DNA of 64,000 nt from Adineta ricciae (Eukaryota; Rotifera; Eurotatoria; Adinetida; Adinetidae), in NCBI GenBank assembly GCA_905250025.1, contig CAJNOJ010000248.1, positions 1 through 64,000 on the forward strand, read 5' to 3'. The notes under the pieces are model-generated. The model was not told where the DNA came from and did no database searches. It saw only the letters and a program-made list of their open reading frames with translations. This document shows, one piece after another, positions 1 through 64,000 of this stretch (position 1 is the stretch's first letter; every line of letters starts with the position of its first letter). A program made the translations under genes and the position numbers.

Positions 1-3000
1 TCAAAAGCTCTTTTCGCCATAGATCTCGTTGTTTTTTTAATTATATCGATGTCTTGTTGAGAAATTGACTGCTGAAGGTCTTCCTCTTTTTTTCGTCGAG
101 TATCGGTGTGTTGATTTGATGAGAATGAACCCCTAGACAAGCTCACATACTCCTCTTCCATCATAAACGCGATATACTGCTTAACATCTTCCTTCACTGA
201 TCTTTTCCCTCGAGCTTGTATACAACGGATTTGATCATGTTGAAGAACTAAATCGACCACAAATTTTGGTTCTTTCAATTTTTTCATATAATATTGACTC
301 ATAACTTTCTGTTGAAGAACAAACAGTTCAAACATGGTCTGACTACAACGATAAACAGGTTGAACTACACGAAACCATCGAAGAATATCTTCAGGAAGAT
401 TTGTTAATGAAATCAATGAGCTTTTGAGACATTTAATGATATTTTCAACTGTGTCTCTTTGGTTCTGAACGAAGTTGATATCCACATTCATATCGCGGCA
501 GTCAATCACGCTCATATCTTCAGGCGAAGCACAATGACGAAAGTGAGCATTGTGGCTTTGATCAGTTTGAGAGGTACACCGTTTGCCATGTTTGCACAGA
601 GGTCGTATATCAGGAACGTTTGTATGTGAGTATGTGTTTAAATGATCCTCTTGTTTCATTCTTTCACATTTATCACCGAACGAACAACTTTTTCGATCTA
701 TGTGAATGAAGTTTTTTATATGTCTCCCAGTTTGGTCTGTGCAGTTACTTCCATACCAACACACATGTGAAAATCGACTGAAATGCTGGTCGTCGTCGTT
801 CTTTTTGTTTTCTTGAAAGCAATCGTTGTAGAATCGACAGTGAAATGGAGTGAATGGACATGGTGGAAGAAATGGATGGTAACATTCGTCAACATGTTGT
901 TTGTCGTGAAACTTGTTGCATCTATTTCCCTGTGGACATCCCGGTTTACAATGACGATATTGATCACAATGAGTTCTGATGCTCTTTAGAAAATCTTTAC
1001 ATTTGTGTGCTTCTGGACAAAGTGGTAAATGACGATATGCTCGTAGATGAACTGCCTCCATATTGGTACAGTAACCTTCTTTCGAACAAAATGGTGGATG
1101 TTCGAATTCTTGGCAGTGCTTTTTGTTATCAATCAGAGTACATTCACCTCCATCTAGACATTTTCTAGGATGAATAAATGAGTACATATGAACTCTATCA
1201 GATGATTTTTCGCATCGATCTTTGCCAAATGCCATGGCACATAATGGTGGGTGAGAAAAACTACGTAAATGATCTGGATTACGATCATTACACATAGCTG
1301 CGAATTTACATGGTGTTGAATCAAATATACAAACATCACTCACAGTCGATCCATCCGAGAGGAGTCGATATGGGCCGATAATTGTATTTGGAACACCTGC
1401 TAGTTTGGTACGCTTAACTGATTTGCCATCCAACTTTTCAAATGGCTTAAAGTTGCCTTCTCGGTTTAATTGGCCACCCGTATTGTGATCGTCGATGATC
1501 GCGAACACAACTTCTTTGAAGAAGCCTGCATACTGTTCAATAACTGATAGGAACAGTTGTGCCACATGTTCAGGTGGATTTTTGAATGCACCACAACCAA
1601 AAGCAGACAGGACAAGTGAATCATGGCCTTGACGATGGGCGATCGAAAAAATAGTTTCAATCTTTTTTCGCATGCCCACAGCTGCTTCTGGTGCTAATCG
1701 ATTGTCATCTAGTTCAGGAACTCGATAAGCAGCGATGGCAATGGCACAAACATCTGTCAATGGTTTCTTCATGTAAGCATAACCTCGGTCTTCTGAATGA
1801 CGAAACACGGTGAGACCTGAAGTATAAATTGCACCGAATTCATCCATTGGATAGATGCGCTTTTCATCACCCACAGGCTCTTTTTCACAGTCAGATGTGC
1901 AGATAAAGCGTTCAGCTCGTTGATCATGATATGAGTCTAATTCGAGATCTAGGCTGCGAAAGTAATCGGATCGACGGAAGATGTTCTCTTCTTGTGCGCC
2001 ATCACCTTTTTTATATCCACCTCCTGGAGTTGTTTGATTAGCCATGTTTAACAGTACGGGACGGTAACCATCTTGAACTAGCTGTTCATATACTACAAGA
2101 CAGTCTTCTTCCTGTACCCGAATGTTTGTTTCTTTGTATTTAATCTTTTCGTATGGTATTTTTGAGCATTGTTCGAGTTTGGATTGATGATTGTAAATAA
2201 TGGTGGTTAATTTATCATCCAGATTTAACTTCACTTTTCGATCACTGACTAGATAATGTTTCTTCTTCACGGCAGCAAAAGTATCGAGCATGACAGTCAT
2301 TCGAAGTAGATGACGTGTTTGATCGGGTTTCGCAGACTTTTCGGAGCGTGAAGCACCGCGATCGCGGTCACCATGATACAGTGTAGATGCTGAATTTTGA
2401 AACTCTTCGAGCCATGCTTTTTCATTCCATCGGCACTTAAAAATGAAATGATCAGGATCGTCTAGGAATTGCATGATGTCCGGTTTGACTTCGGCCATTT
2501 TGGTTTTGTACCATGTTTGAGCATTGATTTCGCAATCATCCATTTCTTGCGATGCAACATTCTCGCTAATACGAAAATGTTGGCCATCAATCTCTAGTTT
2601 CTTTAATCGTAAGCATCTGTCAAATATATATTTATCTTCCACAGTTATAAGAAGTTTCTTGTCAGCATACTTATGATGTATCACTTTTCCATTAAACACT
2701 TGATGATTGATAATGCGATCAACGGCACTTTTCGAAACCGGTTCAATAAGTAAGCGATAGTTAAAACTCCTCCTCAATATTTTTCTACCATCAATATCAA
2801 TACACGATTGTGTTATCCATTTACGAGCTTCGCCAGTAACAATAACACATGCCCTGGATGTGTGCTGATCTATTTGCGCGTAAATATTTGATGATGATAT
2901 GCTTTTCTGTTGAATAGACTTTTTGATTGCTGACACTAGGCTTATTTCAGTGGTTGATATTGAAAGATCTTCCAAGAAACTACAATCGGCGAAAAGATAT

Positions 3001-4592
3001 ATTTGTGCTGATATATCATCGATAAAAGTTTTTTGTTGAGTATCACTTTTGGAGAGTTGATCTGAAAATTCATAAATAAGACGATAAATATTGGGAAATT
3101 GTGCATCTAGCACAGCACACGATAGTGGTTCCTCTACATTGAGATAAATGGCGCATTTTCGACTTATGTCTTCTGGTGTTGGCAATCGACTACTTGTACG
3201 TTGATTGCTCTTGTCCAACACAACGAACGAAACAACTTCTAGAGTATCGCTGAATGGAATCGTTATTTCATTATCTTCTATCGTTAATTTGATTTGTTGA
3301 ACATGTTCAACAAGTTGCTGTTTTATCTCATTGCCTACGACATGAATTATACCAAAACCAAACTCGGGAAAACTTTGAACATCATGAGCGCCTTGAGAAC
3401 TTGTATTCTTTGCGATGAGTTGACAAACAGTTTTCTCGAATTTCTTTCGGTCTCTGATGTTAAATGGTATATCTGGAATATACACTATGCACTCGTTTTC
3501 ATCGTCTAAAGAAATATTTCTTTTAACTTCGTTTTCAAGAATTCAGATACAAGATTGTCATGTACATTCTTTTATAAATTACTCAATATACGATTAGTGA
3601 TTACCTTGCAACTTTTTTTTCGAAGATTCTGCACCTTGATAATCGCCATCTGCGGCAGATGTAGTTCGTGATGTTGATGATGAATCCGAACCATTTTTGT
3701 TAGCACTTTGGCCAGCTTTCTTCTATAAGGAAAAGGCTTGTATCCTTTTTAATCAGCTACATAGTCATTAATAATTGATGGTGTCGAAGAATGAGATCCA
3801 GAGTTTTTCTTTCAAATCTCTAACTTCAACTTATCGGTTTCTCGACATGAAATCTCTCAGAAGAATTTATACGAAGTCACTATTTCGGACAATAACAACA
3901 GCTCTAGTCTTAAATCTTGATGACTCATTTGGAATATATAGATTTCTGTTTTATTCATACAATCTAAGTGGTACTCGATGCATGTTGACGAATTGGAAAG
4001 TTATTCAGCGTCATCTTCTGTGTAACTAGATCGAGTCTTTTCAAACGAATAATTCTCAATACTTCGGATCGGTGATGTAGATACCGGTCGTGTAGCATCT
4101 GTGTTGGCAGAAATCGTGCAGTATTAAAAACATGTCATTCATCGTCTCTCAGCTTCTCATAAAACTTCTGTTTACTATCCGTGCAAAATTTGGAAACTGG
4201 TAATAGTACTGAAATACTCGGATAAGGGCATGTCTGCCCAGAAGAAAATTCTTTGATAAAGATTTCACTGCAAAGAAGAAACAAAAGATATCTTAGTAAC
4301 CACAATAAGTGTTTCTCTTTCTGTTCCGAAAAAGTTCATAATTGCTTTGGATCAAGTTACTTACGTCGTTATTTCTTTGCTTTTCATCATCGGGTCGAGT
4401 TCTACTTGCACTTGAATTTTTTGGGACCTCTGATACAGACGCGCCGACCGCATCCGATTTTCCTCCACCAGTTTTGCGACTACTTTCTTCTTTTTCCTTT
4501 GATTTCTGTCGAGAACATTGAGGTGTGTTATCAGGCAAATCATCTGCATATGATGAATCCGAGCATTTTGAGCGTTCATTCATCTTACTCAC
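1..4592 (-). CDS. PARG / PBZ zinc-finger array protein with RRM-like domain (3' end off window)
   Basis: Exons by splice sites and phase: 4365-4592, 3605-3722 and 3505 down to the left edge. The ATG at 4592 follows a possible splice acceptor, so an upstream exon may exist; no RING exon was seen. A Ser/Lys-rich low-complexity N-terminus is followed by an RRM-like segment (VYIPDIP, FGFGIIHV) and a long linker. Next comes a microbial-type PARG (TIGR02452/DUF2263-like) domain with NMANQTTPGGGYKKGDGAQEE (the GGG-x7-QEE loop) and VLSAFGCGAFKNPP. About ten tandem Cys/His fingers follow (538-1310), then a helical C-terminal region. The PARG family removes ADP-ribose polymers and PBZ fingers bind them, so a reader/eraser of ADP-ribosylation is inferred. 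The catalytic loop looks intact. It is divergently oriented to the related plus-strand copies at 6095. Confidence 0.8.
538..1310 (-). repeat. Tandem array of about ten PBZ-like Cys2His2 fingers
   Basis: Inside the preceding gene, successive segments follow C-x5-C-x6..8-H-x5-H, often with an aromatic or Gly residue after the first Cys. Examples are CKFAAMC...HLRSFSHP, CWYGSNC...HIKNFIH, CSFGDKC...HLNTYSH and CKHGKRC...HNAHFRH. This matches the PAR-binding zinc finger of APLF and CHFR (C-x-[FY]-G-x2-C ... H-x5-HP). Some units deviate in spacing, so not all need bind zinc or PAR. CCCH RNA-binding fingers are the main alternative; the terminal H-x5-H spacing argues for PBZ. Confidence 0.7.
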
Positions 4593-6094
4593 TAAACAAT
4601 AAAGAATATTTATTGTAAGTTATTCCATAAACCGTTCCCAACTACAATATTGACACAGAGGAGAAGTATAACGCATTTAAAGTGAAACCATGTCTTGAAT
4701 AGTAGAAAATGTGATGTGGGTGAGGATGAGGGTGTGAGTGTGATTCCGTTACGGAATTCAGTTCCAAGGTATATGATACTGTGGACAGAGACGATGATGG
4801 GATCGAACGAATTGATTTCACTATGGGCAGCATTAGGGAGTAGGATGTAATCTCTATTTTTCAAATACAAAAACGTCTACTATATGATAAAGACGATGAT
4901 GTTTCAAATAATGCTCAGTTGAGTCTAAAACTTCACATAATATCTGGCTAATACATTCACTCCCTAGAGGAAGAGAACGATAATCGCAATTGTTCTTTTT
5001 AAAATGCTCTTGTGAGCCAGGTTAGTTTCAAACGATAAGAGATGATGGCATAAAATTGAATCAATCTGAGTGCGATACTGTATCTTACAATTTGCCCTCG
5101 ATCGTACACTCCACTTACTGCAACAAAACTATATTTCGATCATTATTTTATTGAGTATCGTAAGCAAAACTAACTGAGAACATGTAACGACTTCGTTGTT
5201 TCACTGATAACTGAAGTCTATAAAACAGTAGTAATCTGAATCTTAAAGCATTTTTATCAACTCAAGAAACTCTCTTAATGGTCTTAACATAGATGCTGAT
5301 TTACGAGGAAATACATAGAGAAAGCTTCGCAAAGAAAAATCCGATGCAGTATGATCTTGTCATTTAAAAACTTACTTTTGTTCGGTGAATTTGAAGAATA
5401 ATATGTGGGTTACGAAGGGACGAGTAGTGGCTGCTCTGTTAAGTAGGAAGAATAGAAAAGAAATTTTTTCTGTTATTTTTTTCTCTCCCTCAAAACGTAA
5501 AATGTACTGTTTCAAGCGAGCAAATATCGGAGAAAGACTGAAAAATTTTCTTCCTACCCACAACATCCATCGTATCGTCATGCGTTCTTTTTCTCTCAAA
5601 ATAAAATGAAGAACAATCTCTAGAGATCAAGTCGGAAGTTTTCTTTGTATAAAATACGCAAACTAGATTAATACAAGTAAAAATTCAGTCTATTTTGCAC
5701 TTGAAAAAAAGAGTGTTGGTAGAGTTCGTTAACTTGGGTAAGATATTACGAATTCAAGTAGTCATTTCCTATCCATATAGTTTCCATTGATATTGTCTAT
5801 GTAACGGTGCCCATACATTCCGTTTGTAGACAGTATGTCCTGCCTCCTTTTCATTTCGTCTTCCCACAGTTTCTTCCTATTCAGTTTTGTTCTTTTTCAT
5901 TACAATATGAACAGATTTTAACATAGCAAAGTCGGAATGAAAATCTCAGCTTAATTACCATTCAGCTTGAGCTGACTGTGCGAGCAGACGTATGAATATA
6001 TATTCGTCGAGTATACATACCTTCACCCCCACCCCCACCCACGACTACCCTCATGATGAAGTTTTGACCTGATCATTTCGTTTCAGATATAACT
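4593..6094. other. Intergenic region between divergent family genes
   Basis: About 1.5 kb of AT-rich DNA separates the head-to-head PARG/PBZ genes. No ORF with recognisable protein character was found. It contains two G-rich/C-rich short tracts (4714-4742 and 6022-6050) on opposite strands. It presumably includes both promoters. Confidence 0.5.
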
Positions 6095-7419
6095 ATGTCT
6101 TCATGTGCACCGAAACAATGTTCAATATGTAGAAGTCCATTAAACACTGGAGAACTCGATGAAATCACAACTTCATGTGGACATACATTTCATCGTAAAT
6201 GTGCACAAAAGCGTTTAGATCGATATAATAAAACCGATTGTCAAGTCTGTCGTCGAGAACGTGCTCTTGGCGATGCTTTATCCAAGCAGAAAACCATGCC
6301 ACCCAAACCTGTAAGTTCTTCACCTGCAATCGAGTACTTTCGTTTCGGTAGTGTCTCTATCTGAATATAGCATTATTATTGAGCTCAGCTCCAGAAAGAT
6401 AAATTAAACTGCTACTATGCAAAATCGAAATCTTGCTGCCCAAGATCGACAGTCTCATTCCCCAGGCAGCATTTTTACTTGAAATCATACGGCGTTTTGC
6501 TCTGCACGTTCATTCATTCATTGATTTATATTTTCAGGGCCGAGGAAGGAAAAGCCCTGTTTCTTCCGCTCATGCTCATTCGCATCATGCAGATGATCGC
6601 GAGTCTTCTCATTCACCCACCACAAGTGGCAAAAACAGTAAGTTTCTCTCATCCTTTCCAATTATCTTTGTTATTCCATGGTCATATCTCAGAGGAGCAT
6701 GATGAACCAACAGAGGATAATCATGATCGTCGATCGCACTCTCCTCCAAGGATACAAGGCAATGAAACCGTTTATGTTGTTAATTTACCACCGGACATCA
6801 AAGATGATTTCGATCTGACCAATGCAGTTCGGGCTCGTGTGGAGAATAGTCTTCAAATTTCGATCCGTGACATCAAATGTTATTGGAAACTCGGTGTTGG
6901 CGTTATTCGAGTTGCTGATAGACAAACAAAGAATCGTCTTGTTCAATCGATTCAAGAAATAACATTGAATGTGGCAGGAAAATCAAATACGATTGAATTT
7001 GTTGATACATTAGAATTGACTTCATTTGTTGTATTGGAAATGAACAAAGATTTGTCATATCCAAGTACAAAAGAGATTAATGTTCGTTGGAAAGATCTCT
7101 ATGGAGGAGAAAGACCTCGATCATGTGAACAATTTGATCGTTATTTTCCAAATATTTATCGTTTAGTAACAACATCACTGGATGAAATACTACAAATCAT
7201 GCATAATTCAGATTTCTCTGTGAAAAAACAAAATGGTCGAGTTTATTTCTGTGCTAATTGTAGTTTTCTTACAGATTTACCTACATCAACATTTGAAGAT
7301 GAAATTCGGTCAAGTATTTGCACAGCTATTGAACAAAAGCACATTTCACGTTCATCACTCTACGTTCAATTGAACAAACGAGATGATATTGCTTGTATCA
7401 TTGTGTCAGATATGGCACG
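6095..7419 (+). pseudogene. RING / RRM-like family copy A, cut at an N
   Basis: Exons 6095-6310, 6538-6637 and 6693-7419 join in phase. The first exon encodes a RING-H2 finger (CSIC ... CGHTFHRKC ... CQVC), typical of ubiquitin E3 ligases. The second is a short Ser/His-rich linker. The third has an RRM-like fold (VYVVNLP, LGVGVIRV) and the start of the family's conserved middle. Reading stops at the single N at 7420, where sequence matching copy B is replaced by unrelated DNA, so the PARG and PBZ parts are missing. This may be true truncation or an assembly join. Unlike copy B it lacks the RanBP2-type finger in exon 2. The first ATG sits directly before MSSCAPKQCS. Confidence 0.7.
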
Positions 7420-7718
7420 NCAAAATGTCATAAAATCATCAGTATTGCATCCAATGTAAAATGTTTTCGAACCAGCTGCATATGCACCTTTGCTTACGCG
7501 TGTTTCATGTTCAGATGGAGAACCACTGTTATTGACGATGTGCCGCTCTATCTTGGAAATAAGATAAGATTGATGATATAAATTTGTACGAAGCTACAGG
7601 TGACCAAGCAAAATAGTTTCATTGTCTACTCTTCAGAGATGAAAGCTTTGTCATGGACTTCTCAGTTGTGATAGGCAACTATGAAACTCGAACAGATTCT
7701 TTCTTTTCAGATTGAAAT
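7420..7718. other. Spacer after the N between tandem copies
   Basis: About 300 bases between copy A and copy B start with a single N. I see no match to the family and no supported gene; it includes the upstream region of copy B. Confidence 0.5.
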
Positions 7719-10641
7719 ATGTCTTCGTATGCACCAGATCAATGTTCAATATGTAGAACTTCATTAAATTCGAAAGAATTCGATGAAATAACAACTTCAT
7801 GTGGACATACATTTCATCGTGAATGTGCACAAAAACGTTTAGAGCGATATAACAAAACAGATTGTCAAGTTTGTCGTCGAGAACGTGCTCTTGGAGATGC
7901 TTTATCCAGGCAAAAAATCACACCACCGGAAACTGTAAGTTACTCGCATCTCGTTGAGGGTGCGGTTGTTTTTCTAGACAAAATGTTTGTCGCACATCAT
8001 TTCTACTTTAATTCATTCGTTTCCTTCACCCAAATGTGCATTTTAACATACTTTTAGAGGAGAAGAGAACAAAGTCCTGTTCCCTCCGCTCGCTCGGATG
8101 ACCGTGACAACGACAACTGGTCCTGTAGAAAATGTCACAAGTTCAACGAGATCTCCTCAAAACGCTGTTATTCATGTGGTACGTATAAAGGTGATCGCGA
8201 GTCTTCTCATTCGCAGTCTACAGGTAGAAAAAACGGTAAGTTTCTTTCGAGGCGACGAGCTTCTTTTTTATTCCAGAATTATGTTTTAGAGGATCATAAC
8301 AACCTGACAAGGGACAATCGTGATTTTCGTACATGTCTTCGGCCATCCTCCCCCCCAAGAACACAAAGCAAAGAAATTGTTTATGTTGTTAATTTACCAT
8401 CAGACATCAAAGATGATTTCGATTTAACCAATTTGGTCCGAACTCGCATGGAAAATAGTCTCCAAATTCCTATTCGTGATATTAAATGTTATTGTAAACT
8501 TGGTATAGGTACTATTCAAGTGGCTGATAGACAAACAAAGAATCGTCTTGTCCAATCGATTCAAGAAATAACATTGAATGTGGGAGGAAAATCAAATACG
8601 ATTAAATTTGTTGATACATTAGAATTGACTTCATTTGTTGTACTGGAAATGAATAAAGATTTGTCATATCCAAGTACAAAAGAGATTAATGTTCGTTGGA
8701 AGGATCTCTATGGAGGAGAAAGACCTCGGTCATGTGAACAATTTGATCGTTATTTTCCAAATATTTATCGTTTAGTAACAACATCACTGGATGAAATATT
8801 ACAAATTATGCATAATTCAGATTTCTCTGTGAAAAAACAAAATGGTCGAGTTTATTTCTGTGCTAATTGTAGTTTTCTTACAGATTTACCTACATCAACA
8901 TTTGAAGATGAAATTCGGTCAAGTATTTGTACAGCTATTGAACAAAAGCACATTTCACGTTCATCACTCTACGTTCAATTGAACAAACGAGATGATATTG
9001 CTTGTATCATTGTGTCAGATATGGCACGACGATGGATAACACATAGTTCTGTTTATATTGATGGTAAAAAGATATCGAAGAGAAACAATCTTACAGAAGA
9101 TTTACACAAGTCATCTGATAAACATAGTAAAAAAGTGGATAATAATGAATTCGATGCGAGACGTTGGTATGAAAAAGAAATGAGTCGTTACAAACCAGAT
9201 GTGAAACAATTTCTCTCTGATCTTCGTCATCCGATCTTTCATCATAAATGGGATCCATATCTATGGTTAGAAGAATTTCAACGTGTGAAATCTCACAATG
9301 ATAAAGATGAACGTACTCGTCAATTATTACGTATGACAGTGATGTTGGATACAATTGGTACTCTTTGTCGAAGGAATTATGTGATACATAATCACGAAGT
9401 AATGTTGAAAAGAGATGATGAAATGAAATCGATCATTTATGATCATCAATCGAAATTGAGTTTCGGAGGAAAGATTCCAATAATCGATACAAAATATAAA
9501 TCAACAGTTGTTGAAGTAGTGAAAAGTGATGGTGTTGAAGTATATGAACGATTAGTTAAAAGTGGTCGACATCCATTACTTTTACAAATGACACATTGGA
9601 AACATCCAGGTAGTGAATATGAAAGAAATGATGGTCGAGAAGAAGAAAATCTTTTTCGACAATCTGATTATTTCTTCATTCTCAATGATGATCTCGATCA
9701 TCAACAATCCCATCGAATAACTCGTTATCAATGTTCATCAAAATGTGAACTTGAAAAACTGTCGGACAAAGATGAAATTCGACGAATTAGTGATTTTGGT
9801 GCGATTTACACATCAGGTGTGAATATATTTCGTCGTGGAGAAGAAACTGGTTATGCATATTTGGAGAAACCTCTGGAAAATGTTTGTGTATTGACAATGA
9901 TTGGATATGAAAATCCATCATTGGAAAAGAAAATGTTATCACCCAAATATGCAATAGCAACACGAAAGAAAATGGAAAATCTCTTTTCTCTTGCTTATCA
10001 TCATAAACACGATTCAATTGTTTTATCAACATTTGCTTGTGAAGTCAATAATAATCCTGTTGATCATATTGTTCAACTCTTTAGTTCAGTCATTGAACAA
10101 TATGCTGGTTTCTTCAAATCAATNNNNNNNNNNNNNNNNNNNNNNNNNNNAATCATGATGTTAGCTCATAATATAGGGACATCAGCGAAAGAGAACGAAA
10201 GAGAGAAGAATCGAGAAAAAGTGACCTTCGTGGGACTCGAACCCACACCTTCTGCTATCCGGGCAGATGTCCTAATCCAGTTAGACTAGAAGGACCATCT
10301 TAATCTCTAGTCTAGCGTTGTGTGATTCATCACAAACGCTAACAGTTGATATGATCTTGATATAAGAAGTTGATTTTTTGATAGAATCCAGTGATAGTTG
10401 TGATAACGAAAATCCAATTCCTTGCAGATGGGGCACAAAGTGTCGAGATATTGGAGACGAACGACATTGTTCAAAATATTCTCATCCTGCTGTACATAAA
10501 CATGCTGATCACCAAATTCCTTGCAAGTGGGGCAGTAACTGTCGAGACATGAACGATGTACAACATTGTAATAAATACTCCCATCCTGATCCAGCGTCAT
10601 CCGACGAAGATAGTGTAGCATCAATGACTGACACTGATTGA
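7719..10641 (+). CDS. RING / RanBP2-ZnF / RRM-like / PARG-like / PBZ protein, copy B (internal gap)
   Basis: Exons 7719-7934, 8058-8235 and 8290-10123 join in phase. A 27-N gap and a tRNA-like gene follow, then a likely last exon at 10385-10641. Domains in order are: RING-H2 (CSIC ... CGHTFHREC ... CQVC); a RanBP2-type finger at 8118-8177 (WSCRKCHKFN, then CYSC); an RRM-like segment; a long linker; a PARG-like domain; and, after the gap, two PBZ-like fingers (CRWGTKC...HCSKYSHP and CKWGSNC...HCNKYSHP). The PARG signature is degraded: PGSEYERNDGREEE replaces PGGG...QEE and VLSTFACEVNNNP replaces the usual GAFGCG loop. Catalysis is probably lost, while ADP-ribose or PAR binding may remain. The RING suggests a PAR-directed ubiquitin ligase (inference, by analogy with CHFR and RNF146). 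Confidence 0.7.
10124..10150. other. Assembly gap (27 N)
   Basis: The run of N falls inside the PARG-like domain of copy B. The 204 bases before it recur at 63334-63537, where the reading frame continues into PBZ fingers. The missing middle of copy B may therefore be the sequence at the right end of the window. Confidence 0.95.
10222..10295 (-). tRNA. tRNA-like gene, isotype uncertain, possibly a pseudogene
   Basis: The minus strand folds as a cloverleaf. The acceptor pairs GTCCTTC with GAAGGTC (one U:U mismatch). The D arm is GTCT/GGAC, the anticodon stem TCTGC/GCAGA, the variable loop has 4 bases and the T arm is GTGGG/CCCAC. Box B (GGTTCGAGTCC) is perfect and box A (TAGTCTAACTGG) is good. 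The anticodon loop CCGGATA puts GGA at positions 34-36 (serine codon UCC), but there is no long serine variable arm and position 33 is C rather than U. Isotype and activity are doubtful. It lies between the gap and the last PBZ exon of copy B. Confidence 0.6.
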
Positions 10642-10966: not shown

Positions 10967-12033
10967 TTAATGCTTTGATCGATGATGATCGAAAATAGTC
11001 GGATATGGCCGTTGCGCTCCTCCTCCCCATTGGCTCGGATCTGCATAAACAGTGAGTTTCCATTTCTTCGCAAGCAGACTCAAAATAGATTGATCATGAC
11101 GATGATCGTGAAATCCGGGATAGTTCGGTGATCCTAACACATTTGCGTCATCCGTTACCACTCGACTATCTTGCGCATAGGTCAACCATTCAGATACGAA
11201 TCGCAGACTAGTAAAACTTCTTTTGACCACAACGAAAGAAGCAAGAGCAGCCAGTGTTGTGGTATATTCTGGTTTATCAGCGTTGAGAATGATCAATGCA
11301 TCACGCTTTGTTAAAGCTGATTCCTGAATCGAAAAGAAATGAACCACCTCAATATTCATCTAACTTGTCTTACTTTCCAACCCGTCAGTTTGAAAAGAAC
11401 AATATCCTGATTGGATGTGAGCTGTGTGAGATAAGAAACATTATTGATGAAATTGACAGCCGCATCTGAATATACAATAATATCTCCATCTTGTGCTAAA
11501 TAAAGTTCTTGCAAGAGAATAAATGGTTTCCACAGCCAGTAGCCAGCTCCTCTCTTCCGATTCAGGATATCTGCATTTCGGCTGACAAACATAGGATCGA
11601 TATCTAAAATATGTTTGTTGAACATCAAACATTGCCGAATTCCAAACTTTAAACCGGTCAGACAGTTGCTATTTTGTGCATGTTTACAACATCGATGAGC
11701 AAAATTAATCAATAACGGGTAGCAACGTTGTTGATTGGCCTTTGTCGGATAATTGTGTATCGTTTGACAAGAAGAAGAATTTAAAAATTTGAAAGTTATT
11801 GACCTTGGCGTTGTTTTGTCCTTGAGTATAAACTCCCATACAGAGAAAGAACAGCTGACGAATAAAGCAAGAAGGAACAGAACATGAACAGTACGAGACG
11901 TTCGAAATAAATTCAATATATATCCAACTGTTTTTAAGTATACTACGGGCGTTAACAAACACCACAGCCATTCTTCTACCCATTGAATTATCTTCCTCAT
12001 GTATTTCGTGACCCTTTGCTGTGTAAACATCAA
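10967..12033 (-). CDS. Putative type II membrane glycosyltransferase-like protein
   Basis: Exons 11374-12033 and 10967-11323 flank a 50-bp GT-AG intron and join in phase, giving about 338 residues. An N-terminal membrane segment (VHVLFLLALFVSCSFSVWEF, near residues 49-68) precedes a Cys-containing lumenal region and a catalytic-looking core. That core has GAGYWLWKPFILLQEL followed by DGDIIVYSDA, the acidic motif expected for sugar-nucleotide binding. Exon 2 has RDALIILNAD and ends in a region with SPNYPGFHDHRHDQSIL, like the C-terminal acidic/His motif of related proteins. A Golgi-type enzyme is inferred. The donor is unknown and the family assignment is by motif only. Confidence 0.55.
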
Positions 12034-12814
12034 TGTCGTTCCACTAATAGGAAAATTTATTTAGAGATATGTAATCCCCATACGAATGGTAAAGTTCCTT
12101 TTAACATAATGTTAGGGACGCATTTTTTACCACGTTGAAACTTACTTGTGTCGATTAGATATTAAAAAAATGTAACGAGACATTGTAATTTTTTGCTCGT
12201 TTTATATGTGCGTTCATGCACGCAATACATATAAAAAAGGTATATAGAGCAAGCATAGGATGTGTCACTGAATCTTGGACCAGTGAAGTGATATTTTATG
12301 TAGTTGATATCTCTTATTGAGGTTGAATAGTGCGTTTAAACACATCGTCATTGATGAGGTAATATGTGAATGATGACATTAAGAATAAGTAAATGTCTGA
12401 CAAATTCAGTTGGGAATGTGCATACATATCTACAATCGTTTCGTGCTATTAAAACGAAATAGAAATGTTTCATTTCGAACAACATACGTGTTTTTTTGGT
12501 ATTCAAAACTGATATGTATGTCTACTTCGAACTGTAATGGAGAAGATGTAAACGCGAGTGCACGATCTGTAATTTCATTCATACTCTCACTTCCATTATT
12601 AACATAGATCGTAGTAGAGTTTGATGGAAAATATTAGAAAGAATAGCAAATGTCGAATCGGATTTTATTCTGAGACGTGGTACAGAAAATGACGCAAGCA
12701 AATGTTATGCATTTTGTGCTTTGAAAAGGAAAAAATATCGAATAAATGATTTATATGCAACACGAACTTTCAATGATCAGTTCATAAGAGAAAATAGTCT
12801 TTTGTAAAATTTCA
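12034..12814. other. Intergenic region
   Basis: About 780 bases of AT-rich DNA lie upstream of the glycosyltransferase-like gene and downstream of the kelch gene. I see no supported coding region, RNA gene or repeat. Confidence 0.5.
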
Positions 12815-14724
12815 TCAATAAAATTCAGCAGTGTTAAGATAATTGGCATTCGAACTGACTCCACCAGCAAGTAGTACTATTCCACTAGGTAAAATCGATG
12901 CAGAGTGATAAGATCGTGGAATGGACATATTGGTGTTGAGTCTCCATGTGTTTGATGACACGTTGTATATTTCAACGCTACTATAAAAAATATTACTGTC
13001 AAACTGCCCACCGGTAACTAACACGTTCCCATTTAATAAGACAGTTGCAGTGTGCACTTGTCGTCCAACATTCAAATACCCTCCTATTGACCAAGTATTC
13101 GTCGATGAATTATATAATTCAGTACTGGTTATACCACCAGACCCGCTATTCCCACCAATGACTAGTACTTTTCCATTCATTAACATAGATGCCGTGTGAG
13201 ATGACCGTTGGGCACTCATACCTGCTGCTAAGGTCCAAACACCACTTGCTGGATCATATAATTCAGCACTATTGAGAAAAGTACTCGCACCACTCATTCC
13301 ACCAGTGACTAATACTTTACCATTTGCTAATACTGATGCTGTATGAGCTTGGCGTGCATAATTTAGAGATCCTGTATATGTCCAACTGTTCGTCGCTGGA
13401 TCATATAATTCAGCACTATTTAAATAGTTATTACCTCCGCCAGCACCATTTCCACCAGCGACTAATACTTTTCCATTTAGTAATACCGATGCTGTGTGAG
13501 TATATCGTGCTGCATTCATGCTTGCTACCTTCGTCCAATTATTTGTTGAGGAATTATATATCTCAACACTATCAAGAGGATTATTATAATATCCACCAGT
13601 AACGATTATGTTTCCACCGGTCAAGAATGATCCCGTATGAAATTGTCGTCCATCAGCCATACTTGCTGTTGCTGTCCAAACACCTGTCGCTGGATCGCAC
13701 AAATCGGCACTGTTCCATGGACCATTTACAGCTCCACCTGCAACAAATACTCTGCCATCTACTAAGACGGATGCGACATGCCGTTGCCGTGCATAAGTCA
13801 TATTTTTCGTCAGTGCTCCTGCGAATAAGATAAATAAGATGAAAACAGTTACTTCGTCGCATTTAAAAGGAATTTGAAATTCAATTCTTCTTATCGCATT
13901 TAGCAAAAGATCATAAGCATCAGAAATTATAACTAACCTGACGGTGCTCTTGTTGTCGATGATGTGGAAGTTGTTGTGGACGTAGATGTGCTGGTTAAGT
14001 CTATTCCAAACAAATAAGTTTATTCATAAGATGTTTAAGATCTTTAGCAATTCTGCCATCAAATGAAAAAAACCTCCTAAAAATACTTATAGTCAGTTCT
14101 ATGCACTCACGACTATAGAACTTTTTATCTCTACATAGATCCCTTAACTTGACATGCACGACTAATTCACCTGATGGCAATGCATATCTGCTCATCCATA
14201 CTCCATAGTTTTTCGAGTTTGCACTTTCTATTGCGCTTTCAAAGAAATTATTTTTCTTTTACTACCATTCTCTTAATGTGAACTGACAATGTTTGTCTAT
14301 AGCTTTTATCTACGTTGCATTCCTCTTGGAATCCAAGGTTAAGTAAAAAAGCGCTAATATTATTTTGTATTCCTCATATTTTATACTTACCCAGCGGAAA
14401 TCTCGTTCCTAAAATGACACTCATCGTTACCGCATTCATTTCGAACGACATGTTTCCATTCTGATTAATGGAATTGTCGAACAGTTGACAATTGAGAGAC
14501 GCAGATCGATAGGTAATTGCCTTGCAACCTAATTGGTCTAAACAAGACATTTCACATTGACGAACGTTGGATTTGGTGAGATTAACAAATGGAGCACAAG
14601 TTGTTTTCGCGCATTGAAAAGTAAAATTAACCAATGAAGACATTCGAACTGATCGTATATCACTTTCAATTGTTTGTTTGAAGAAGACAAACAGAAATAA
14701 AAGACTACCTCGTGTTATCGACAT
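12815..14724 (-). CDS. Secreted apple-like / Thr-linker / kelch-repeat protein
   Basis: Exons 14391-14724, 13938-14000 and 12815-13818 join in phase (466 residues). The start at 14724 gives a signal peptide ([15 protein letters not shown]). Residues about 30-100 form a Cys-rich apple/PAN-like module ([33 protein letters not shown]). The middle exon encodes a Thr/Ser-only linker. The rest is about six kelch units of roughly 48 residues ([21 protein letters not shown] and variants [29 protein letters not shown]), forming a beta-propeller. An extracellular binding or adhesion role is inferred. The protein at 59063-60030 has the same first module, which points to domain shuffling. The first intron is long (390 bp). 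Confidence 0.8.
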
Positions 14725-63139: not shown

Positions 63140-63332
63140 TTTAAGAGGATGACTGGAATTGCTTAGATAAATAGATATGCTTTTCTGTCGCTGTTTATAG
63201 ATGTTTAATGAGCGAGGATGTTAACAAAGAAGTTAACCTTCTAATCAATGAATATTCTCTCATTGATCTAAAGGTCATGGGAAAAAAATGACAAAGAAAG
63301 AAAAATAAATTATATCCTGTCTAAAAACAAAA

Positions 63333-63333
63333 N
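63333..63333. other. Single N marking a probable contig join
   Basis: One N separates the upstream region of the small secreted gene from sequence that repeats 9920-10123. It is probably an assembly join rather than a real base ambiguity. Confidence 0.75.
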
Positions 63334-64000
63334 ATTGGAAAAGAAAATGTTATCACCCAAATATGCAATAGCAACACGAAAGAAAATGGAAAATCTCTTT
63401 TCTCTTGCTTATCATCATAAACACGATTCAATTGTTTTATCAACATTTGCTTGTGAAGTCAATAATAATCCTGTTGATCATATTGTTCAACTCTTTAGTT
63501 CAGTCATTGAACAATATGCTGGTTTCTTCAAATCAATCACTTTTGCCATTCCTCATTCTCAAACACTCTTTGAAACATTTGAAAAACTTGATGGAACAGT
63601 CAATGCAACGAAACTCATTCGAAAATCAAATACAAACTTTGGTCCATATCGAATTATATCCGAAGATGTTCGAGTAAATGATCTTAATATTTGTGATTTG
63701 CCACCCTGTCAATTCGGTGGTCGATGTCATGAACGAAACAATCAAGTACATACAGAACATTTTTCACATCCACCTTTATGTCCCAAAGCGTGTCTTAATG
63801 GTAAATGTGATGAAACAAAAGATCTCGTTCATTTATATTCATTTATTCATCGAATTCGATGTCAATATGGTGGTGAATGTCGACAAATTGATGATGAAAA
63901 ACATTGTCAAAGTTATGATCATCCATCATATTGTTCGAAAGAAAGTTCTTGTGAGAATATGGAAGCAATTCATTTACGAGAATATCGTCATTTACCACTT
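63334..64000 (+). CDS. PARG-like / PBZ protein fragment (both ends cut)
   Basis: An open frame from the N at 63333 to the right edge. Up to 63537 it repeats copy B (KYAIATRKKMENLFSLAYHH, VLSTFACEVNNNP, VIEQYAGFFKS). It then continues through the end of the PARG-like domain (ITFAIPHSQTLFETFEKLDG, SNTNFGPYRII) into PBZ-like fingers: CQFGGRC...HTEHFSHP, CLNGKC...HLYSFIH, CQYGGEC...HCQSYDH and CSKESSC...HLREYRH. The first and third match the PBZ pattern best. It is either the missing middle of copy B or a further copy. The gene at 1-4592 has the same order. Confidence 0.8.

Follow-up and report, generated by a model that had tools for sequence, protein, structure and literature searches.

The first 64,000 nt of an Adineta ricciae contig (CAJNOJ010000248.1; this whole stretch is called the window here) contain broken copies of a large multicopy gene family, in which a RING, a microbial-type PARG domain and fingers resembling PBZ zinc fingers follow one another. 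The reading that we put forward, with confidence about evenly divided, is that one of these, copy B (7719-10641), is an incompletely assembled pseudo-PARG member of a family of ADP-ribose-directed, E3-like proteins, whose full-length products we estimate at 1,900-2,000 residues. An original prediction had drawn a single polypeptide over 6095-10641, combining a RING, a RanBP2-type finger, an RRM-like part, a PARG-like domain and PBZ fingers, and had seen in it a reader and eraser of poly(ADP-ribose) (PAR) that is also a ubiquitin ligase. Most of its parts are present, and RING, PARG and PBZ-like fingers do stand in one gene-like order in paralogues; the single-gene drawing is wrong, and the case for an eraser, a PAR reader, an RRM and a novel protein has become weaker.

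Copies were delimited by translation and by reading of splice sites, which divide the span into two tandem copies, A and B. Below, C248 denotes the contig holding the window, and C229, C396, C365 and the like denote other contigs of the same 130 Mb assembly; L031 is the C229 locus and L032 the C396 locus.

6095-6310, plus strand: copy A exon 1, the RING of a separate tandem copy (exon reading, identity to C229).
6693-7419, plus strand: RRM-like exon of copy A, interrupted by a single N at 7420 (94.6% identity between window 5272-7419 and L031 730-2864).
7423-7593, minus strand: piece of the C-terminal domain in opposite orientation, directly after the N at 7420 (tblastn, 42% over 57 amino acids, 4.5e-7).
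7719-7934, plus strand: exon 1 of copy B (RING-H2), opening with ATG and followed by a GTAAGT donor at 7935 (PF13639 1.2e-8; 94% match at C365:58706-58921).
8058-8235, plus strand: copy B exon 2, RanBP2-type finger at 8118-8177, phase compatible with exon 1, GTAAGT donor at 8236 (PF00641 0.0099, under cut-off; finger in the same place in L032, 1.9e-5, also under).
8290-9113, plus strand: first part of copy B exon 3, two ferredoxin-like/RRM-like halves by eye, no significant family (alignment of 17 copies over 8358-9095).
9114-10123, plus strand: copy B microbial-type PARG region, signature eroded, last part lost to the gap (PF10021 5.6e-7; alignment).
9609-9647, plus strand: place of the PARG signature in copy B, GSE-X7-EEE instead of GGG-X7-QEE (alignment; published signature, Perina 2014, PMC4245714).
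10124-10150, no strand: assembly gap of 27 N, which with its flanking 200 bases replaces 3,293 bases of C229 (finger array and C-terminal domain).
10392-10641, plus strand: copy B last exon, two PBZ-like fingers at 10423-10485 and 10522-10584 (acceptor read at 10390-10391; homologous to L031 7250-7487 and L038; PF10283 22.3 bits).

One gene running from 6095 to 10641 is rejected by this layout: the RING at 6095 is that of copy A, where exon 2 has no RanBP2 finger, and copy B begins at 7719. RING and PARG thus lie in different genes for the RING at 6095, and in one gene, as assembled, for the RING at 7719. Nor does the window hold a complete polypeptide, since 227 bases (10124-10350; 27 N plus 75 tRNA-like bases) stand where C229 has 3,293 (L031 3957-7249), and copy B as assembled is without ten to twelve finger motifs of C229. 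Between the gap and the last exon lies a stretch, 10221-10295 (minus strand), that is a tRNA-Ser (gga) according to ARAGORN and by eye has no long variable arm; it matched none of the compared family loci except the window's own.

The complete domain order is seen in C229 and C396, with open frames of 1802 and 1917 residues, respectively, beyond the RING exon: a RING-H2, an optional RanBP2-type finger, two ferredoxin-like halves, a microbial-type PARG macrodomain, an array of eight or nine PBZ-like finger motifs, a conserved domain of about 630 residues and four or five terminal finger motifs. C396 carries RING, RanBP2 finger, RRM-like part and PARG in one stretch without N, and five further-examined copies keep the same order from the end of PARG onward (L033 being cut by N). 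A search of the assembly with the PARG region gave 31 matches, some of them fragments of one copy and two (C11, C37) weak, and the copies lie in pairs and tandem arrays. Linkage was counted over 28 of these matches, leaving out the two weak ones and one C94 fragment. Searching with the C396 RING gave 17 RING matches, 14 of which have a same-strand PARG match no more than 4 kb downstream; together these 14 mark eight PARG matches. Seven of them come from repeats within just two frames, on C94 and C98, and the copy A RING is counted to the copy B PARG. One of the eight marked matches, C396:65569, is a broken copy, its RING standing 160 bases from a PARG fragment. Downstream, the C-terminal domain follows within 4 kb in 22/28. 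At C94:185573-186316 (minus strand) and C98:294342-295097 (plus strand), four RING matches share an open frame of 291 residues that lies upstream of PARG genes; the two contigs look homologous.

Profile searches agree with the domain reading to different degrees. The RING-H2 call is borne out: PF13639 matches the window at 1.2e-8 (35.5 bits against a Pfam cut-off of 27.3), and the C3H2C3 ligands can be read in the translation. For the RanBP2-type finger, the cysteine and tryptophan pattern is present (W-x-C-x2-C-x3-N-x6-C-x2-C, its spacing exact by eye relative to what we take to be the consensus), and PF00641 is clearly below its cut-off of 27, both in the window (0.0099, 15.6 bits) and in the C396 relative (24.2 bits). 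The RRM assignment is not confirmed: no RRM family of Pfam matched among 17 copies of the region, and a family profile run against PDB sequences gave three matches with E values of 0.54 to 1.4, of which two, at 1.2-1.4, are RNA-binding-motif (RRM) proteins. PF18440 matched 11/17 copies (best E 2e-4, under cut-off in copy B) and was not taken as homology. The PARG-like domain stands on PF10021, which exceeds its cut-off of 23.5 in the window (5.6e-7, 30.5 bits), in C229 (27.6 bits) and most strongly in C396 (4.2e-21, 76.3 bits; PDB 3sig 1.2e-14), and falls short on TIGR02452, for which the window scores 25.5 against a cut-off of 50 and C396 scores 96.6 (1.7e-27). Likewise, copy B's last exon does contain two C-x5-C...H-x5-H fingers, and PF10283 misses its cut-off there by 0.4 bits (1.3e-4, 22.3 against 22.7); the same profile matches C396 at 4.1e-13 (49.5 bits, five stretches) and remains under cut-off in C229 (17.7 bits).

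Several observations weigh against placing copy B in an ADP-ribose-directed ligase family. A RING was found upstream of just eight of the 28 PARG matches (with a single RING query), and the remaining copies may lack a RING or carry one too diverged for the C396 query. By eye, the window RING is without the C-P-x-C proline and helix tryptophan that we take to be usual. The closest match to the 5′ part of copy B, on C365 (94% in the RING, 95% in exon 2 and part of the RRM-like region), covers just residues 1-222 of the 352 of exon 2 and the RRM-like region, and the genome-wide search gave no PARG match in the 2.8 kb from the end of this counterpart to the following RING, where an N gap is possible; the link of copy B's RING to its PARG therefore comes from the window contig alone. 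Finally, just 3 of 85 distinct family fingers carry an aromatic residue after the second cysteine.

In the PARG domain, copy B and its C229 partner read GSE-X7-EEE at the signature place (GGG to GSE, QEE to EEE), QMTH for NMAN, and FACEVNNNP for a later [LF]GCGAFKNP-type stretch. The signature loss concerns a published catalytic motif, GGG-X6-8-QEE in the text of Perina 2014 (PMC4245714), where partial motifs were already noted in eukaryotes. Of 24 distinct copies read (26 rows minus three seen twice via overlapping loci, L025, L028 and L029, plus L009), 21 keep GGG-X7-QEE; besides copy B and C229, the altered copy is C797 (L009), with QEE changed to QGE and a tree partner on C140 that is intact. 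Of the eight pairs in the tree, copy B and C229, which form one clade, have the longest stem (0.75); the stems of the remaining seven measure 0.23-0.36. The altered signature weakens the role of eraser that had been proposed for the flagged copy. As the signature is gone from both homologous copies and yet the C229 frame is open, we read the PARG of this lineage as a probable binding or structural pseudoenzyme. In the same tree, which sampled bacteria and this family and included no eukaryote collection, bacterial rows (18 of 67 loci found) and family rows (19 of the 24 copies) separate fully, and the bacterial rows nearest to the family are two Bacteroidales with weak support (94/69); no transfer from bacteria is claimed.

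Two further pieces of the family lie in the window, of which the second extends beyond it and enters the estimates of selection:

27-3497, minus strand: further copy of the family, its GGG-X7-QEE intact, truncated by the start of the contig (43.7% over 1172 amino acids in tblastn with L032).
63331-64000, plus strand: third piece, the end of PARG and the start of the finger array beside a single N at 63333, continuing beyond the window into the C-terminal domain and last fingers (96.6% to L031 3750-4419).

Pairwise ratios of nonsynonymous to synonymous divergence (dN/dS, Nei-Gojobori) are 0.14 for the finger array and 0.18 for the C-terminal domain (both for the C248 piece beyond 63333 against C229), 0.23 for the RRM-like part, 0.32-0.62 for the short RING exon (72 codons) and 0.36 for the eroded PARG, compared with 0.14 and 0.18 for two pairs whose PARG is intact; no ratio could be computed for one distant pair, owing to saturation. 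Every computable ratio is below 1, which speaks against the flagged copy being a decaying or misassembled fragment without a product of its own, a relic of a real family left among near-identical tandem copies. Copy B is also free of N over 7719-10123 with compatible splice sites, and its C229 partner keeps the 1802-residue open frame despite the same eroded motif. The raised ratio of the eroded PARG is nevertheless what such a relic could produce, the scrap of C-terminal domain on the opposite strand at 7423-7593 fits it as well, and the Ns at 7420, 10124-10150 and 63333 each lie at an edge of C229 homology, with further Ns in several other family loci. On balance we regard the relic as unlikely. 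From the position of these Ns and their recurrence in other family loci, near-identical tandem copies seem to be poorly assembled.

Copy B reads as a mosaic. Its identity to C229 is 82.8-87.5% in the RING exon, 32-69% in the introns and exon 2 and 80.8% at 8389 (32-88% over 7700-8389), and 93-100% from about 8509 onward, apart from one bin of 91.7%. The same pair has a dS of 0.34 in the RING and 0.08 in PARG; the copy A RING has a dS of 0.05 to C229. Such a profile could mean that copy B joins two genes, with RING and RanBP2 exons from one tandem gene and the RRM-like part and PARG from another, brought together by gene conversion or by the assembly, and the early end of the C365 counterpart points the same way. 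This is a real possibility, though one to which we give somewhat over a third of our confidence. Two features argue against a false join: identity rises stepwise (69, 81, 93, 96%), and in the bins at 8509 and 8629 copies A, B and C229 share 93-97% identity, short of full agreement. For these reasons gene conversion explains the data better than misassembly, and conversion between tandem copies is our preferred, sequence-based account of the mosaic. The N-free C396 stretch, furthermore, joins the same four parts in the same order.

Whether the fingers would recognise PAR is a separate matter. As fingers of the C-x5-C...H-x5-H type they are numerous: six of seven family frames have 10-12 occurrences of the strict pattern, compared with at most two in 200 letter shuffles of each, and the seventh (L038, which starts after the array) has four, compared with one (L034-L037 start inside the PARG region; the L031 frame passes through a single in-frame stop, within a presumed intron). 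A loose pattern finds 14 motifs in L031 and 12 without overlap in L032, where the strict one finds 12 and 11. The finger itself is shared with APLF and with canonical PBZ proteins of the same genome. Canonical PBZ fingers, however, carry CYR at the second cysteine (the examples having been chosen by a pattern demanding CYR), whereas the residue that follows it in the family is in most cases R, L, T, K or S. In APLF, the aromatic residue there is critical for contacting the adenine ring, and the position two after the first cysteine (C1+2) is the other place of adenine contact, according to the text of PMC6264785. Since the tyrosine is absent, the family is a weaker candidate for a PAR reader than had been claimed, and the fingers might bind RNA, another nucleotide or a protein, the family then being a set of immune or anti-parasite E3s and not part of a DNA-damage response. 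The arrangement of copies in pairs and tandem arrays is in keeping with this alternative, as is the absence of the term PARG from the available text of papers on the radiation and spaceflight responses of A. vaga (PMC10809525, PMC12220480). At C1+2, however, Y, F or W occurs in 33 of the 85 distinct finger strings, taken from eight frames (40 with H), and both window fingers have W there, with R after the second cysteine. Together with the PF10283 match in C396 and the intact PARG signature in most copies read, this makes the non-PAR alternative rather doubtful.

The conserved C-terminal domain (about 630 residues; 46 invariant columns over 15 aligned copies, two of them partial) has about 30 matches across the genome, some with PARG and some without it. 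Because it is found in open frames with fingers and no PARG match (C129, C74, C411, C217:110496; C154 twice, by coordinates alone), it looks like a module of its own. Such frames, with the finger array and this domain, include L059, L060, L065 and L066; at C99:212883 the domain is preceded by N, and no verdict on PARG is given there. Scans with two short peptide patterns found no relatives in viral or genome contigs, none were found among the plasmids or phages searched, and Pfam, PDB and PHROGs gave no credible match (PHROGs giving weak single-member matches alone). To the eye, YGDIVIVFKREI...NFTIQAGTS and VEAHLPQLIPLDYI look similar to parts of DUF3626 proteins (RFGSAHLRL...TTFCFPDS, YVEAHVHG), and E330 is invariant in all 15 aligned copies, which would suit an ADP-ribosyltransferase-like enzyme. 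The DUF3626 identity found no support, as hhalign scores fell within those of shuffles: against six DUF3626 proteins (seven of 296 genomes of one phylum matched; the six over cut-off were used and the seventh dropped) the domain reached a probability of 0.06% and a score of 13.4, below the mean of 15.8 of 100 column shuffles, and a trimmed segment scored 15.3, a value equalled or exceeded by 17 of 100 shuffles. DUF3626 was found neither in the genome of the window nor in four bacterial genomes. On the hhalign scores and with no credible library match, a transferase-like enzyme is very improbable. We also hold it to be distinctly unlikely that the domain represents a new class of ADP-ribose-acting enzyme or reader, such that one chain would recognise, edit and ubiquitinate its targets, with the window lineage being a PARG turned pure sensor inside such an E3. 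Elsewhere in the window, two open frames on the minus strand appear by eye to encode kelch-like repeats (12815-14023) and a glycosyltransferase-like protein (11356-12060).

Under the ADP-ribose-directed reading of the family, ubiquitin ligation, ADP-ribose binding and a cellular role are predicted from sequence. Fingers and macrodomain would dock the protein on ADP-ribosylated (or other nucleotide-bearing) partners, to which the RING would pass ubiquitin. In copies with an intact signature, PARG could also trim ADP-ribose chains; in the window lineage it would bind, or serve as a scaffold, without editing. Counted by exon, the genome has 125 matches to the PARP catalytic domain, a number compatible with an enlarged ADP-ribosylation system, and in A. 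vaga 17 PARP genes are over-expressed after radiation, family members not being named in the text of that report (PMC10809525). If the RING works, recognition and removal of ADP-ribose and ubiquitination would be coupled in one chain, in some two dozen copies. The copies also offer a natural series for studying a PARG fold after loss of its catalytic signature, and a conserved C-terminal domain without relatives in the libraries searched.

The original prediction knew of no described protein with these parts, a claim now weaker, as an A. vaga PARG with several PBZ repeats was in print by 2014 (Perina 2014, PMC4245714, citing Slade 2011) and is very likely of the same family. The text of that paper on the A. 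vaga protein makes no mention of a RING, a RanBP2 finger, the C-terminal domain, copy number or signature loss, and in the text of the literature searched (main text, as distinct from supplements and figures) we found neither a RING nor the C-terminal domain on such PARG/PBZ proteins, nor the copy number or the signature loss. CHFR, an FHA, RING and PBZ ubiquitin ligase (PMC12687431, in the text available), shares with the family the combination of a RING with PBZ-type fingers. Pfam found neither FHA nor WWE in the window pieces, L031 or L032, and the family is accordingly not placed with CHFR. To our knowledge, CHFR has no PARG. RNF146 (RING and WWE) and RNF114 are, by the same text (PMC12687431), RING ubiquitin ligases directed by ADP-ribose modification, with reader modules that differ from those of the family. 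The domain itself is closest to bacterial-type PARG (PDB 3sig, 5zda-5zdg; PF10021/TIGR02452): Pfam matches it in the window, and in C396 the matches to Pfam, TIGR02452 and PDB sequences are far stronger. Whereas bacterial-type PARG is described in the text of PMC4245714 as a single-domain protein, the family adds a RING, fingers and an unassigned domain to it, and copy B carries it without the signature.

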